From positions 1 to 41,655 of the forward strand of contig JADGEK010000037.1 in the NCBI GenBank assembly GCA_016744395.1: 41,655 nucleotides of DNA, read 5' to 3'. The position numbers were made by a program, and so were the translations under genes. Shown here piece by piece: positions 35,529 through 41,655 of the stretch; position 1 is the stretch's first letter; every line of letters begins with the position of its first letter. This DNA comes from Gammaproteobacteria bacterium. GTDB taxonomy: Bacteria; Pseudomonadota; Gammaproteobacteria; GRL18. The notes under the pieces are model-generated. The model made no database searches. It was not told the DNA's origin and saw only the letters and a list, made by a program, of their open reading frames with translations.

Positions 35529-35556
35529 GTAGAGACAAGGCATGCCTTGTCTCTAC
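35529..35556. repeat. 28-bp palindrome family, copy E (perfect), likely bidirectional terminator
   Basis: Arm GTAGAGACAAGGCA followed by its exact reverse complement, flanked by AAA on the left and TTTT on the right. It lies between the convergent SprA-type gene and coq7, so it can terminate both transcripts. Confidence 0.85.
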
Positions 35557-35583
35557 TTTTACTAATGTGTAATGTTTTACCCG

Positions 35584-36234
35584 TTAAAGGTAGTAAGCCC
35601 CTTTAGTCATCACCTTAGACATCATTCCCATGGCCAGCTTGACTGCCCCTGGCAACTTGGCTGCTCCAGCTTCCTCGGCGATGATGGCATGATGCAATTC
35701 ATCCTCTTTCATTTGTTCTAAAATAGAACGGCTTTTATTATCCTCAGGTGATATTTGAGAAAGGTGGCTGTCAAGGTGACGAACCACTTGATGTTCCGTC
35801 TCAGCAACAAATCCCAGACTCCATTTATCACCTGCAATTCCCGCAACTGCCCCAATAGTGAGCGAACCCATATACCAGAAAGGGCTCAGATAGCTGACAT
35901 GAGTCCCTAATTCCTGACAACGTTTTTCACACCAGTCAAGGTGATCATTCTCTTCTTGTGCCGCGCGAAACATTTGTTGGCGAACTTCAGGTAGTTTTGC
36001 TGTTAATGCCTGCCCCTGATAGAGTCCTTGAGCGGAAACCTCACCCGCATGATTAATTCTCATTAAACGCCCTGAGAGTTGTTTGTCTGCATCATTTAAT
36101 TCAGTTTCAGTATGATTTTTTGCAGGGTTTTCTCGTTCAGTGATTTCGGGGGCACCCAAGAGTGTGCGCACACCTGTATCAATATTGAAAAGGAAATGAT
36201 CCAGGGCTGAGTATTGGCGTTGATGTGAAGACAT
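35584..36234 (-). CDS. coq7: 3-demethoxyubiquinol 3-hydroxylase, Coq7 type
   Basis: Coq7 is a di-iron enzyme that hydroxylates demethoxyubiquinone (C6) in ubiquinone synthesis; it replaces the flavin enzyme UbiF of E. coli. Length 216. Iron ligands are visible: E65 (NHAGEVSAQG), E95 and H98 (EENDHLDWC), E147 (ETEHQV) and the ExxH at E179-H182 (EDELHHA). The hydrophobic stretch near 120-135 probably touches the membrane. It lies 16 bp after the GlcF-like gene on the same strand, so the two are co-transcribed. Ubiquinone presence points to aerobic respiration. Confidence 0.95.
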   Translation of the reverse strand: MSSHQRQYSALDHFLFNIDTGVRTLLGAPEITERENPAKNHTETELNDADKQLSGRLMRINHAGEVSAQGLYQGQALTAKLPEVRQQMFRAAQEENDHLDWCEKRCQELGTHVSYLSPFWYMGSLTIGAVAGIAGDKWSLGFVAETEHQVVRHLDSHLSQISPEDNKSRSILEQMKEDELHHAIIAEEAGAAKLPGAVKLAMGMMSKVMTKGAYYL

Positions 36235-36250
36235 AATTTTTTAACTCTGT

Positions 36251-37597
36251 TTAATATGCTTTGATTAATTGACGAGCCAATAAATGAATAGGGTGTATGA
36301 CTTCTACTTTTCGCCCTATCTGATGCTCGTGCCTCTTAATACCATCTTTAAAGTGTAAACTGCAACCGATATTGGAAGAAACAATGGTTTGGTAGTCATG
36401 CTGTATCACATCGTCTATTTTTTCATCAATAAGACGATTGGCTATCTCAGGGTATTGAAGCATATAACTGCCTGCTGCACCACAACAATACTGATCATTA
36501 ATTCTAATTAATTGAATATTGGGGATGTTTTCTAGTAAATCGAATAATGACTGATCGTCTTTTAATACATTTTTTAAACTACAGGGAATATGCACACCGA
36601 TTTTCTGTAACTCTTTGTTGCCTATTGGTGTAAATTGGACTGAGCTTTTTTTGATGGCATGAGTGAGAAAAGAAATAATATCAGTGGCTTTGTGGCTAAA
36701 ATTTCTTGCATCATTCTCTAAGTCATCTTGCTCAAAGAACTTGATGTATTCTTTGAGCTGTCCAGAACAACTGTTGGTTATGGACAAAATGGCCTCACTT
36801 TCTTGTAACAATGGCTTATATTGATTGATATTCTGCTGTGCTAATTTGTTCATGCCTTGGATATCACCATGGCGACTGTTCATCGCACCACAGCACTGTT
36901 GCTTTTCTGGAACATGGACATTGAATTGACAGGCGTTTAAAAGTGTAATGGCATCATTTAACGTTTGTTGCTCAAATAGATCGCTACTGCAGCCTTTAAA
37001 TAAAATAACTTGTTGCTTATCTTGGCTGTCAGTCGATGAAAGTGTCTTTGAAGCAGGGTAATACTCTTCTAACTTCGGATTGAGTGAAGCATTAGGTAGC
37101 ATTTCATGGCTGAAATGACTCATTGTGCCAAGTGTTGATGGCTTTTGGTACTTAACACCTTGGTGATTATGGTCTGTGTCAAATAAGGACAAAATAGGAG
37201 CAGCCGCTTTTGCTGATATTTTTACCAAAGGATGCAATGATTGAGTCACTAACAGCTTCTCAGCCATTTTTTGTGTAAGAGAGCGTTTGTGCTGTGGATA
37301 CTGGGACACTAAAAGTGCTCTACCCAGATTGTTTAAAGTGGCATAATCAACCTGTGATGGACAGATTTTTTCGCAAGCACGGCATGTCAGGCAATGATCC
37401 AGTGACAGCCATAAGTCTTCACTGGCTTCAAATTGTTCTTCGGCCAGGGCCTTAAACAGTGAAATACGACCACGAGGGGATTCGTTTTCAGTCCTGAACA
37501 AGTGATAAGTGGGGCAATGTGGAATGCACAGTCCACAGAGTACACACTGATTGGCAAGCTGAGAAATGGTTTGCTGAATCGTCAATAAAATTTCCAA
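36251..37597 (-). CDS. GlcF-like two-cluster Fe-S protein (glycolate oxidase iron-sulfur subunit type)
   Basis: A 448-residue electron-transfer protein with two N-terminal [4Fe-4S] motifs, C18-C21-C24-C28 (CVLCGLCIPHC) and C69-C72-C75-C79 (CLTCRACEKIC), then two CCG domains with CCGAMNSRHG and CCGAAGSYML, as in GlcF and related heterodisulfide-reductase-like subunits. GlcF passes electrons from the flavin subunits GlcD/GlcE to quinone, but neither gene lies near, so the substrate is open. No upstream ATG is available; TTG at 37597 follows an extended -10 (TGCTATAAT) by about 20 bases. It precedes coq7 by 16 bp, a link with quinones. Confidence 0.86.
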   Translation of the reverse strand: MEILLTIQQTISQLANQCVLCGLCIPHCPTYHLFRTENESPRGRISLFKALAEEQFEASEDLWLSLDHCLTCRACEKICPSQVDYATLNNLGRALLVSQYPQHKRSLTQKMAEKLLVTQSLHPLVKISAKAAAPILSLFDTDHNHQGVKYQKPSTLGTMSHFSHEMLPNASLNPKLEEYYPASKTLSSTDSQDKQQVILFKGCSSDLFEQQTLNDAITLLNACQFNVHVPEKQQCCGAMNSRHGDIQGMNKLAQQNINQYKPLLQESEAILSITNSCSGQLKEYIKFFEQDDLENDARNFSHKATDIISFLTHAIKKSSVQFTPIGNKELQKIGVHIPCSLKNVLKDDQSLFDLLENIPNIQLIRINDQYCCGAAGSYMLQYPEIANRLIDEKIDDVIQHDYQTIVSSNIGCSLHFKDGIKRHEHQIGRKVEVIHPIHLLARQLIKAY

Positions 37598-37619
37598 AAA
37601 CTAACTGGTAAATTTTGCT

Positions 37620-37628
37620 ATTATAGCA
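37620..37628 (-). promoter_or_regulatory. extended -10 element before the GlcF-like gene
   Basis: On the minus strand TGCTATAAT is a perfect extended -10. The -35 region is poor, which is usual for this promoter class. It supports a start near the TTG at 37597. Confidence 0.55.
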
Positions 37629-37725
37629 CCCTAATTGAAAAAGCAGATAAAAGTCTGAGTGCTTTTTTTGTCTCATTAGACTATCGATTACAGATTTTCG
37701 ACATCATTTATACCTTGGAGCTAGC

Positions 37726-38040
37726 ATGTCCTATTATTCAAAACATTTATTCGTCTGTACCAATGAACGAGAAGATGGCGGTCCGTGTTGTCAACGATAT
37801 GATACCCGCAGGATGCGTAAATATGTGAAAAATAAATGCAAAGAACTCGGTATTCATGGTGAAGGACAAGTTCGCATCAATAGTGGTGGCTGCATGGGGC
37901 GTTGTAATGAAGGTCCTGTTATTGTGATTTATCCTGAGGCGGTTTGGTATACCTTTGTTGATGAAGAAGATCTGGATGAAATCATAGAGCAGCATTTATT
38001 AAAGGGGAAGATTGTTAAACGACTTCAATTGCCAGGGTGA
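37726..38040 (+). CDS. thioredoxin-like [2Fe-2S] ferredoxin
   Basis: A 104-residue protein of the thioredoxin-like [2Fe-2S] ferredoxin group. Candidate cluster cysteines are C11 (HLFVCTN), C21/C22 (GPCCQ), C56 and C60 (GGCMGRCNEGP). The C-terminal half PVIVIYPEAVWYTFVDEEDLDEIIEQHL closes the fold, and the WY-x-F-V-D motif is typical. Electron partner is unknown. TTGGAG lies before the ATG. The gene diverges from the GlcF-like gene, so the two might share control, but this is inference. Confidence 0.92.
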   Translation: MSYYSKHLFVCTNEREDGGPCCQRYDTRRMRKYVKNKCKELGIHGEGQVRINSGGCMGRCNEGPVIVIYPEAVWYTFVDEEDLDEIIEQHLLKGKIVKRLQLPG

Positions 38041-38195
38041 TCATTAATGCTAAATGTTGGATTAAAAGAGAAAGAATAAAAATGATTTGAAGTCTCATTA
38101 AATTGATTTTTGTCTAAAAATATTCTTATTTTTTATCTATGTCAGATGAAACTGATAAACAGTTAACACTTTCACGGTTAATTTTGAAAATGCTA

Positions 38196-38224
38196 TTGAC
38201 AAGGTTAGGGTATATCAGTATATT
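38196..38224 (+). promoter_or_regulatory. strong sigma-70 promoter of the putative small RNA
   Basis: TTGACA at 38196-38201, a 17-nt spacer, and TATATT at 38219-38224 form a near-consensus promoter. No open reading frame follows; a structured region ending in an intrinsic terminator does. Confidence 0.75.
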
Positions 38225-38230
38225 ATTATT

Positions 38231-38347
38231 CAGCTGATTACTGTTCACATGAAGTGACAGCAGCTACTTTATACCTCCATCCTCCTTTGGTGGTTTTTAT
38301 AATGGCGTAACTCCCCCCCCCCCTTGGTTGCGCCTTATTTTTTTTCT
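38231..38347 (+). ncRNA. putative C-rich small RNA with anti-Shine-Dalgarno loops
   Basis: About 117 nt from the predicted start to a T tract, with three hairpins. Hairpin 1 (38232-38265): AGCTG/CAGCT closes an inner CTGTTCAC/GTGACAG stem with a 5-base loop and a 4-base bulge. Hairpin 2 (38273-38294): ACCTCCA pairs with TGGTGGT (one T-T mismatch) and leaves the loop TCCTCCTT, complementary to Shine-Dalgarno sequences. Hairpin 3 (38304-38334): GGCGTAAC pairs with GTTGCGCC (one G-U) around a loop with eleven C. It ends in TTATTTTTTTTC. It lies between the ferredoxin gene and rplM, with no coding potential. Trans-acting RNAs with C-rich loops are known in other bacteria, but I can name no homologue. 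Structure was drawn by hand. Confidence 0.6.
38304..38347 (+). terminator. intrinsic terminator with an eleven-C loop
   Basis: An eight-pair stem (38304-38311 with 38327-38334) is followed by TTATTTTTTTTC. The loop is C11 (38313-38323) plus TT, which is unusual. Confidence 0.75.
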
Positions 38348-38441
38348 ATAATTTACTTCAAATTTTCATCGGCTTTTTAATCATAAAATAAAAACAAATA
38401 AATTGTTATTTAACAGGTAATCAAAGTCGGTAACACAACCA

Positions 38442-38469
38442 GTAGAGATAAGGCATGCCTTATGTTCAG
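38442..38469. repeat. 28-bp palindrome family, copy F (degenerate 3' arm)
   Basis: GTAGAGATAAGGCATGCC is conserved, but the right half reads TTATGTTCAG instead of the matching arm. It lies between the small RNA and rplM. Confidence 0.7.
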
Positions 38470-38566
38470 CCTATATGAATGCAGAGTCAATGGTTTACTC
38501 ATCTTTAGAGATATAATTATTAAAACTAATTTCATAAAAACACTTTTTAAATGAAAAAAAGTCATG

Positions 38567-38662
38567 TATAATCTCGGGCTCTTTGAAACACAAGTGATTA
38601 TTTCTGATTGGAAGAAGCTGATTAGTCGCAATTAAGAAATGAGCTCAAGAGGATACTTGTGT
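38567..38662 (+). promoter_or_regulatory. rplM promoter and structured leader
   Basis: TATAAT at 38567-38572 starts a leader of about 120 nt before rplM. ACACAAGT at 38588-38595 pairs with ACTTGTGT at 38655-38662. Within it ATTTCT (38600-38605) pairs with AGAAAT (38635-38640) and ATTG (38607-38610) with CAAT (38629-38632). L13 autoregulates its own operon in some gammaproteobacteria; this stem could be such a site. The -35 is weak. Confidence 0.55.
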
Positions 38663-38698
38663 GACTAAAACAAAATTTAATATACAGGCGCTGTAAAA

Positions 38699-39127
38699 AT
38701 GAAGACATTTAGTGCGAAACCAGAAACTGTCGAACGTGACTGGTATATCGTTGATGCTGAAAACAAAACCCTGGGTCGTCTGTCAACAGAAATTGCCAGA
38801 CGTCTTCGTGGTAAACATAAACCAGAATATACTCCACACGTTGACACAGGTGATTACATCGTTGTCATTAATGCTGAAAAAGTACACGTGACTGGAAACA
38901 AAAGAACCGATAAGATGTACCATCATCACACTGGTTTTGTTGGTAATCTGAAAAGCATCAGCTTTGAAAAATTACTCGATAGAGCGCCTGAGCGTATTAT
39001 TGAAAATGCTGTTAAAGGTATGTTACCTAAAAACCCTTTAGGTCGTGCTATGTACAGAAAAATGAAAGTCTATGCTGGTGATGAGCATCCACATACTGCT
39101 CAGCAGCCTAAGACTTTAGAAGTATAG
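38699..39127 (+). CDS. rplM: large subunit ribosomal protein L13
   Basis: L13 binds 23S rRNA early in 50S assembly. At 142 residues it is the E. coli length and shows the expected [20 protein letters not shown] start, [20 protein letters not shown], and [19 protein letters not shown] near the C terminus. rpsI follows after 63 bp, the universal pairing. A structured leader precedes it. Confidence 0.99.
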
Positions 39128-39190
39128 GTAGCGACTTAACTCTGCTTTCAGTTAACAAATGAAAGCTAAGAAATGGTAACAGGATAAATT

Positions 39191-39580
39191 ATGATTACAC
39201 AATATTATGCAACAGGTCGCCGTAAAAGTTCATCTGCACGTGTTTATTTACGTCCAGGAAAAGGCGATATCACTATTAACGATCGTCCAATCGAAGTATT
39301 CTTCGGTCGTGAAACTTCAAGAATGGTTGTTCGTCAGCCTCTAGCACTTACTGAATTGTTAGAAAAATTTGATGTTAAAATTAACGTCAGTGGCGGCGGC
39401 AATACAGGTCAGGCTGGTGCTATTCGTCATGGTATTACTCGTGCATTGATTGAATATGATGAGTCACTACGTCCAACACTAAGAAAAGCTGGTTTCGTCA
39501 CTCGTGATGCTCGTCAGGTCGAACGTAAGAAAATCGGTCTGCATAAAGCACGTAAGCGTCCACAATACTCTAAACGTTAA
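39191..39580 (+). CDS. rpsI: small subunit ribosomal protein S9
   Basis: S9 lies at the 30S head, with its C-terminal tail reaching the P-site tRNA. The 129 residues open with [19 protein letters not shown] and end in the basic RPQYSKR tail, whose terminal KR contacts tRNA. AGGAT lies before the ATG. A double hairpin terminator follows the stop, so rplM-rpsI is a closed operon. Confidence 0.99.
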
Positions 39581-41355: not shown

Positions 41356-41655
41356 ATCAAGCGAAATGCAGGTGAAAATCTGCGTCCTTTTAGGTTGAAT
41401 GTGAGTGGCGTAACTCAACCAGACTTCGGTCTTCCACTTGACTATTCAGATTATCATCTGAATATTGTAAAAAGCAGATTAATTTCTGTGCATTTCAAAA
41501 ACGGCGTAAGCTGTTCATTTCGATTGTTCCTACAGTACTTTTTACAGTATTGTCAGTGGAACCTTCTATTTAGCTAGAAGTAGCCTAGGGATAGTGCGAG
41601 ATCAGTAATGATCCTGTGCGAAGCTTCCTAACAATGTAACCATCCAATTGGATTA
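41356..41655 (+). other. hairpin-rich region at the window end, no convincing gene
   Basis: Six or more short stems follow one another: GCAG/CTGC, GGTTGA/TCAACC (near 41393-41421), AGAC-TTCG-GTCT, TTCAGAT/ATCTGAA, CTTCTA/TAGAAG and GATCA-GTAA-TGATC (41600-41613). A GTGCG at 41594 and a GTGCGAA at 41616 flank the last stem. Group II introns open with GUGYG, so this might be the 5' end of one that continues outside the window; that is only a suggestion. The region may instead be a structured RNA or a transposon end. Confidence 0.35.

Follow-up and report, generated by a model that had tools for sequence, protein, structure and literature searches.

The window, which is the whole stretch of 41,655 nucleotides of a gammaproteobacterial contig analyzed here, carries a predicted small RNA gene between a [2Fe-2S] ferredoxin gene and rplM, with coq7 further upstream on the opposite strand. 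The features of the region are as follows.

35584-36234, minus strand: coq7 (NF033656, 277 bits), syntenic neighbor, and also the neighbor of S17 in Bordetella (PMC11722255)
37726-38040, plus strand: [2Fe-2S] ferredoxin of 104 amino acids (sub-cut-off NCBIfam ferredoxin matches), syntenic neighbor
38196-38224, plus strand: sigma-70 type promoter TTGACA-17-TATATT (-35 at 38196-38201, -10 at 38219-38224, predicted start at about 38231)
38231-38347, plus strand: predicted small RNA gene of about 117 nt
38232-38265, plus strand: 5' hairpin of the window's family
38273-38294, plus strand: core hairpin ACCUCCAUCCUCCUUUGGUGGU, drawn from folding and accessibility
38304-38345, plus strand: intrinsic terminator
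38544-38572, plus strand: separate rplM promoter, TTTTTA-17-TATAAT with the discriminator CTCGGGC, within a conserved intergenic block
38699-39127, plus strand: rplM, encoding ribosomal protein L13 (TIGR01066, 216 bits), syntenic neighbor
39191-39580, plus strand: rpsI, the next gene after rplM

A promoter scan gave TTGACA-17-TATATT as the best promoter-like site within positions 37000-39500 (11/12). The RNA predicted to start from it folds with -30.8 kcal/mol (z = -4.66), and none of 200 shuffled sequences folded equally well. It forms three hairpins, namely the 5' hairpin, the core hairpin and the terminator. The core hairpin contains the anti-Shine-Dalgarno (anti-SD) loop UCCUCCUU at 38280-38287, while the terminator has a stem at 38304-38312/38326-38334, a loop of 11 C at 38313-38323 and a run of eight T at 38338-38345. 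Both loops are unpaired in the folding ensemble. An alternative register of the core hairpin, with the stem CCAUC/GGUGG and the loop CUCCUUU, is favored by variants among the relatives (U-G to C-G or U-A). In the window the register with the loop UCCUCCUU is the more stable one, with a pair probability of about 0.87 versus 0.11 for the alternative, and the anti-SD is exposed in both registers.

There is no plus-strand ORF of at least 30 amino acids inside the predicted RNA. A coding function was also rejected for a GTG frame of 18 codons that covers the core, as this frame is shorter or absent in eight of 14 orthologues. The RNA is single-copy in the genome. A sequence-only reading had earlier proposed that this promoter drives an RNA of about 117 nt without coding potential, with three hairpins, the loop UCCUCCUU in one of them and eleven C in the loop of the terminator, and each of these was recovered where that reading had placed it. 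Judged by these features and their conservation, the element is a genuine, independently promoted non-coding RNA gene with a conserved anti-SD loop.

Two other observations concern the rest of the window. A match to group II intron D1-D4-7 (64 bits) lies at 41562-41655, where it is cut by the contig end. Two similar palindromes were seen by eye, gagacaaggcatgccttgtctc at about 35533-35563 and gataaggcatgccttat at about 38446-38466, and these possibly belong to one dispersed repeat.

Conservation and synteny

The RNA has orthologues in 14 same-family genomes. When the interval from the ferredoxin gene to rplM was compared in seven genomes, with the window as the reference and six relatives, the identity to the window was 90% for the RNA and 78% for the promoter, against 32 and 37% for the flanks. 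The same comparison revealed a second conserved intergenic block at 38518-38607, which holds the rplM promoter. The same-family copies with complete upstream DNA keep TTGACA-17-TATATT unchanged, except in G013, where the -10 element is TATATC at the 17-nt spacing, and in the divergent copy of G018. In a few relatives, paired changes preserve the pairing of the 5' hairpin, while C-G/U-A changes in same-family relatives preserve that of the terminator. The sequence-only reading had staked its claim on conservation of promoter, loop and terminator in related genomes, and all three were found to be conserved there. A record of the symbiont of the clam Lucinoma myriamae (L070) contains one same-family locus (L007, from genome G003 of the same genus); the window's genus thus includes this symbiont.

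The core, (CUCC)AUCCUCCUUUGGUGG of 14-20 nt, is found unchanged in distant Gammaproteobacteria, and with distant families the window's family has an identical core of 20-23 nt in common. The 15-mer TCCTCCTTTGGTGGT occurs exactly in 79 of 369 genomes of the class, compared with four for its reversed control. A scan of named genomes with CTCCATCCTCCTTTGGTGGT gave at least 117 stretches, and the matches listed include Thiocapsa, Chromatium, Thioalkalivibrio, Thiothrix, Beggiatoa, Thiomargarita, Sedimenticola, and Arenicella; Chromatiales and Thiotrichales are among the orders of the named carriers in these matches. In the 107 class-wide homologues with an upstream TTGAC[AGT], to which the -10 counts are limited, position 2 of the -10 element is A in 91% and position 6 is T in 90%, at 17-bp spacing. 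Many homologues have ATATTAGAA between the -35 and -10 elements (38202-38218, ATATCAG in the window), which is possibly a regulator site conserved over families.

The terminator pairs covary. Class-wide, 141 two-sided cells were counted, versus 28 in shuffles and at most 21 when the pairing was slid, and all eight modeled stem pairs show two-sided changes. In the core hairpin only a single pair varies (U-G, C-G, or U-A), and on one side only; the hairpin is too invariant to provide a strong covariation test. The sequences behind the covariance model described below were selected by their exact core, so that the core invariance is inflated, partly by construction.

The position of the gene is also conserved. 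In all 84 non-redundant core-bearing loci with rplM in the DNA examined, the RNA precedes rplM and shares its strand, at a distance within 1.5 kb in 82 of them, and a [2Fe-2S] ferredoxin gene or coq7 often flanks the RNA on the other side. Multiple or tandem copies of the RNA, about 100-280 nt apart and several with their own terminators, were also seen: three each at L044 and L115, four in G324, three in G284, and two each at L052 and L192.

The constant position in front of rplM is what would be expected of a cis-acting leader or attenuator of rplM-rpsI, where readthrough from 38231 would be set by the state of the ribosome and would tie in the synthesis of L13 and S9. However, the RNA has its own terminator, rplM has a conserved promoter of its own between this terminator and the gene, the distance to rplM reaches 4.1 and 4.6 kb in two Thioalkalivibrio genomes, tandem copies each end in their own terminator, and at several loci of betaproteobacterial type coq7 is the only near neighbor of the two. 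Moreover, the rplM leader of Escherichia coli is different, being a structured 5'UTR of 157 nt (PMC10931766), and the betaproteobacterial relatives act in trans (PMC11722255, PMC5688073). A role as a leader is therefore considered highly unlikely.

The C-run of the terminator loop

The sequence-only reading had suggested that the run of C in the terminator loop could change in length, and between species it does so: 8, 9, 10, or 11 C were found in 13 same-family sequences, and six C in the divergent G018. It is present in many separate assemblies, which speaks against a sequencing artefact, although the exact lengths in assembled metagenomes are uncertain. Outside the window's family the loop mostly has two to five C, and the terminators of 133 of 153 homologues have five or fewer. 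Compared in this way, the C-run is a local variation confined to the window's family.

The sequence-only reading had drawn an analogy to RepG of Helicobacter, which binds a G-run through a C/U-rich terminator loop. By the same logic the C11 loop could be the main targeting element here, binding G-runs in mRNA leaders and being tuned by its length. The loop is indeed unpaired, it keeps 8-11 C across the window's family, no longer G/C run than its C11 was found in the genome, and the second loop of S17 is known to aid targeting (PMC11722255). On the other hand, the RNA family elsewhere does without the C-run. Of the G-runs of at least eight in the genome, nearly all are intragenic and none stands before a start codon. 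G6-N-ATG occurs 120 times in the genome versus 77 times for the reversed control; none of the 30 places inspected among these 120 proved to be a true start, since an ORF of at least 70 amino acids follows the ATG at only four of them and each of these four lies inside a longer frame. Since no G-run partner was found among the runs of at least eight G and these 30 places, RepG-like action is possible but unsupported, and as the main mode of targeting it is unlikely. RepG of Helicobacter pylori shares the C-rich terminator loop with the window's RNA, whose main conserved element is instead the anti-SD hairpin.

Relation to the RF02278 RNAs

RF02278 is the Rfam family "Betaproteobacteria toxic small RNA", including the double-hairpin RNAs ncS03, ncS05, ncS27, and ncS62 of Burkholderia cenocepacia. 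Rfam gave no match at the RNA locus at gathering score, and RF02278 does not match the window's copy even at E <= 10. The sequence-only reading had called the RNA unannotated, but its family has already been described in Betaproteobacteria. At E <= 0.001, RF02278 matches 102 of the 369 class genomes and none of 14 controls. The gammaproteobacterial members score 28-49 bits over the whole model, with 28-34 bits for the distant core-bearing members first compared, which is below the gathering score of 50 bits, and the cut-off is exceeded in just two of the 369 genomes.

A covariance model, R1, was built solely from exact-core gammaproteobacterial sequences. It recovers two loci that are both over the RF02278 cut-off (L179 and L180) at 31 and 35 bits, and beyond these a number of others that have the form CTCCTCCACCTCCTCC / GTCTCCTCCACCTCCTCC...GGTGGATT. 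The betaproteobacterial label of this second type, GTCTCCTCCACCTCCTCC...GGTGGATT, rests on the RF02278 score and the form of the sequence. Second-type loci found by R1 lie near coq7 (L179, L180, L230, L234, L237, and L238) or upstream of rplM (L227, L229, L232, L233, and L235), while L224 and L231 have both genes. Five weak R1 matches, of which three are in other classes (L239, L240, and L242) and two within the class (L241 and L243), lack the core and were discarded as terminator matches.

The architecture of RF02278, with a CU-rich stretch, a hairpin with an anti-SD loop and a terminator hairpin, is present in the RNA. The best reading is that the RNA is the gammaproteobacterial orthologue of the RF02278 family. 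Orthology is proposed because reciprocal model matches, intermediate sequences and a shared position come together, and since RF02278 itself misses the window's copy, what ties this copy to the family, as a variant more than a plain member, is the evidence from its relatives, from R1 and from synteny.

A membership among the alphaproteobacterial cuckoo RNAs was also considered. CcsR1-4 and ar14 likewise have two adjacent hairpins with C-rich loops, and sub-threshold matches were obtained for CcsR1 (24 bits, E 8e-4) and ar14 (19.8 bits, E 0.1). These are far from the gathering scores of 65.3 for CcsR1 and 58.8 for ar14, and the homologue L018 scores 33.6 bits with RF02278 against 21.4 bits with ar14. 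By eye no DUF1127-like frame, the neighbor looked for with such RNAs, was recognized upstream, where the ferredoxin gene is followed only by frames of 32-40 amino acids. The R1 matches outside the class are weak and without the core, and linking sequences were not found. The cuckoo assignment was rejected and is held to be extremely improbable.

The "toxic" double-hairpin small RNAs have been described as exclusive to Betaproteobacteria (PMC7011215). In the sequence comparisons, RNAs of this kind occupy a conserved position in many families of Gammaproteobacteria, and the known betaproteobacterial family is extended to a gammaproteobacterial branch with a lineage-specific loop. Because the core is invariant over deep distances and the position is conserved, the locus is placed among the better preserved small RNA loci of Beta- and Gammaproteobacteria. 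R1 detects what RF02278 misses, the gammaproteobacterial members can be compared directly for the conservation of targets, and Thiocapsa, Thioalkalivibrio, and Thiothrix offer culturable and harmless hosts for functional work.

Proposed action, candidate targets and known systems

The present analysis supplies the promoter, terminator, conservation, covariation, synteny, and reciprocal model matches. Hfq dependence, translational repression and the use of the pairing sites would be as in the betaproteobacterial relatives, by analogy with which the RNA is most likely an Hfq-dependent trans-acting repressor masking Shine-Dalgarno sites. S17 of Bordetella pertussis is bound by Hfq, and its deletion raises the expression of 91 genes (PMC11722255). 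Its pairing sites are a 5' site, the first loop and the second loop; it represses BP2158 via the 5' site (Site 1), with the second loop adding to the effect, and compensating mutations restore the repression (PMC11722255). Overexpression of NcS27 slows growth, and the double-hairpin RNAs are induced in biofilm, during starvation and in glucose medium (PMC5688073). The window's genome encodes Hfq (102 bits). In the RNA, ACCUCC upstream of the core hairpin matches Site 1 of S17 in position, while the loop UCCUCCUU matches Site 2.

In the proposed mechanism, the RNA would be transcribed from its own promoter and end at its own terminator. Together with Hfq it would present CU-rich unpaired stretches, of which the anti-SD loop UCCUCCUU would be the chief one and the upstream ACCUCC and the C-rich terminator loop possible further ones. 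Pairing with a selected set of mRNAs at their strong Shine-Dalgarno regions would then block ribosome binding and lower the expression of genes for uptake and energy. As a whole, a stand-alone sigma-70-promoted trans-acting small RNA, orthologous to RF02278, that pairs with Shine-Dalgarno regions with the aid of Hfq and represses translation is regarded as quite probable.

Since the anti-SD core CCUCCUU recurs in the loop, the RNA might also act as a broad inhibitor that mimics the 3' end of 16S rRNA and restrains all mRNAs with strong Shine-Dalgarno sites. When carried by a cloning vector, RF02278 members are reportedly toxic to E. coli. Overexpression gives slow growth (PMC5688073). S17, however, hardly changed the growth of E. 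coli, and the genes raised by its deletion are a limited set (PMC11722255); further, the 8-base complement of the loop lies within reach of an ATG at only 12 places in the window's genome. Little likelihood is given to such a general effect compared with the selective repressor.

The 12 sites of this complement, AAGGAGGA, located 2-9 nt from an ATG, are not an enrichment, as 10 were found for the reversed control; five of the 12 precede a frame of at least 86 amino acids. The sequence-only reading had named glgC, gnd, and ppdK as possible partners over 5-6 bases. Such pairing turned out not to be specific, since seven of the 29 long ORFs of the window, with the best-case choice of start, match equally well. 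A guess at the targets from the genome-wide sites would be dsrA, fccA, and the small subunit of a sodium/solute symporter. The fccA-like cytochrome gene is followed by a flavoprotein gene, and the fccA label comes from this neighbor and the haem motifs, all NCBIfam matches being below cut-off. Its AAGGAGGA site is kept in all 11 close orthologues read, while the site of dsrA is kept in six copies; the two dsrA paralogues differ in their ribosome site. All three genes are candidates only, because sites of this kind are also kept simply for strong translation.

Two side observations were made on these genes. In fccA-like leaders (L280-L291, for example G000:C205 near 83970) the Shine-Dalgarno site of the flavocytochrome c-type cytochrome gene lies inside a conserved inverted repeat, which reads GGTCACCTAAGGAGGACC in one set of species and GATCACCTAAGGAGGATC in another; this paired change points to a hairpin that may cover the ribosome site in cis. 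Two dsrA copies (L256-L278) are present in many genomes of the genus, with the different ribosome sites and starts AAGGAGGACATTATG and AAGGGAGAAAACCGTG.

A wider and rather doubtful version of the proposal would derive the coq7/ferredoxin/small RNA/rplM arrangement from the ancestor of Beta- and Gammaproteobacteria. The RNA would then regulate dsrA, fccA, and the uptake of organic acids in sulfur-oxidizing symbionts and their relatives, and the C-run, with its fast-changing length, would serve as a tunable third pairing site.

Among the described systems, sX13 of Xanthomonas resembles the RNA in its three hairpins and C-rich loops, and it acts on G-rich motifs near start codons (PMC3771888). 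It differs in lying beside polA, in being limited to Xanthomonadaceae, in its 4C/5C motifs and in being independent of Hfq (PMC3771888). S17 adjoins coq7 and is conserved through Betaproteobacteria (PMC11722255), and like the window's RNA it has a sigma-70-type promoter and an intrinsic terminator. Its transcript is Bvg-dependent and 190 nt long, and RNase E trims it to 67 nt, whereas the predicted primary RNA of the window is 117 nt. The RF02278 RNAs as a group share with the window's RNA the CU-rich stretch, the hairpin with the CU-rich anti-SD loop followed by the terminator, and the coq7/rplM neighborhood. The gammaproteobacterial members differ from them in the shorter core stem (CCAUC/GGUGG) and in scores below 50, and the window's copy differs further in having a conserved 5' hairpin and the C11 loop.
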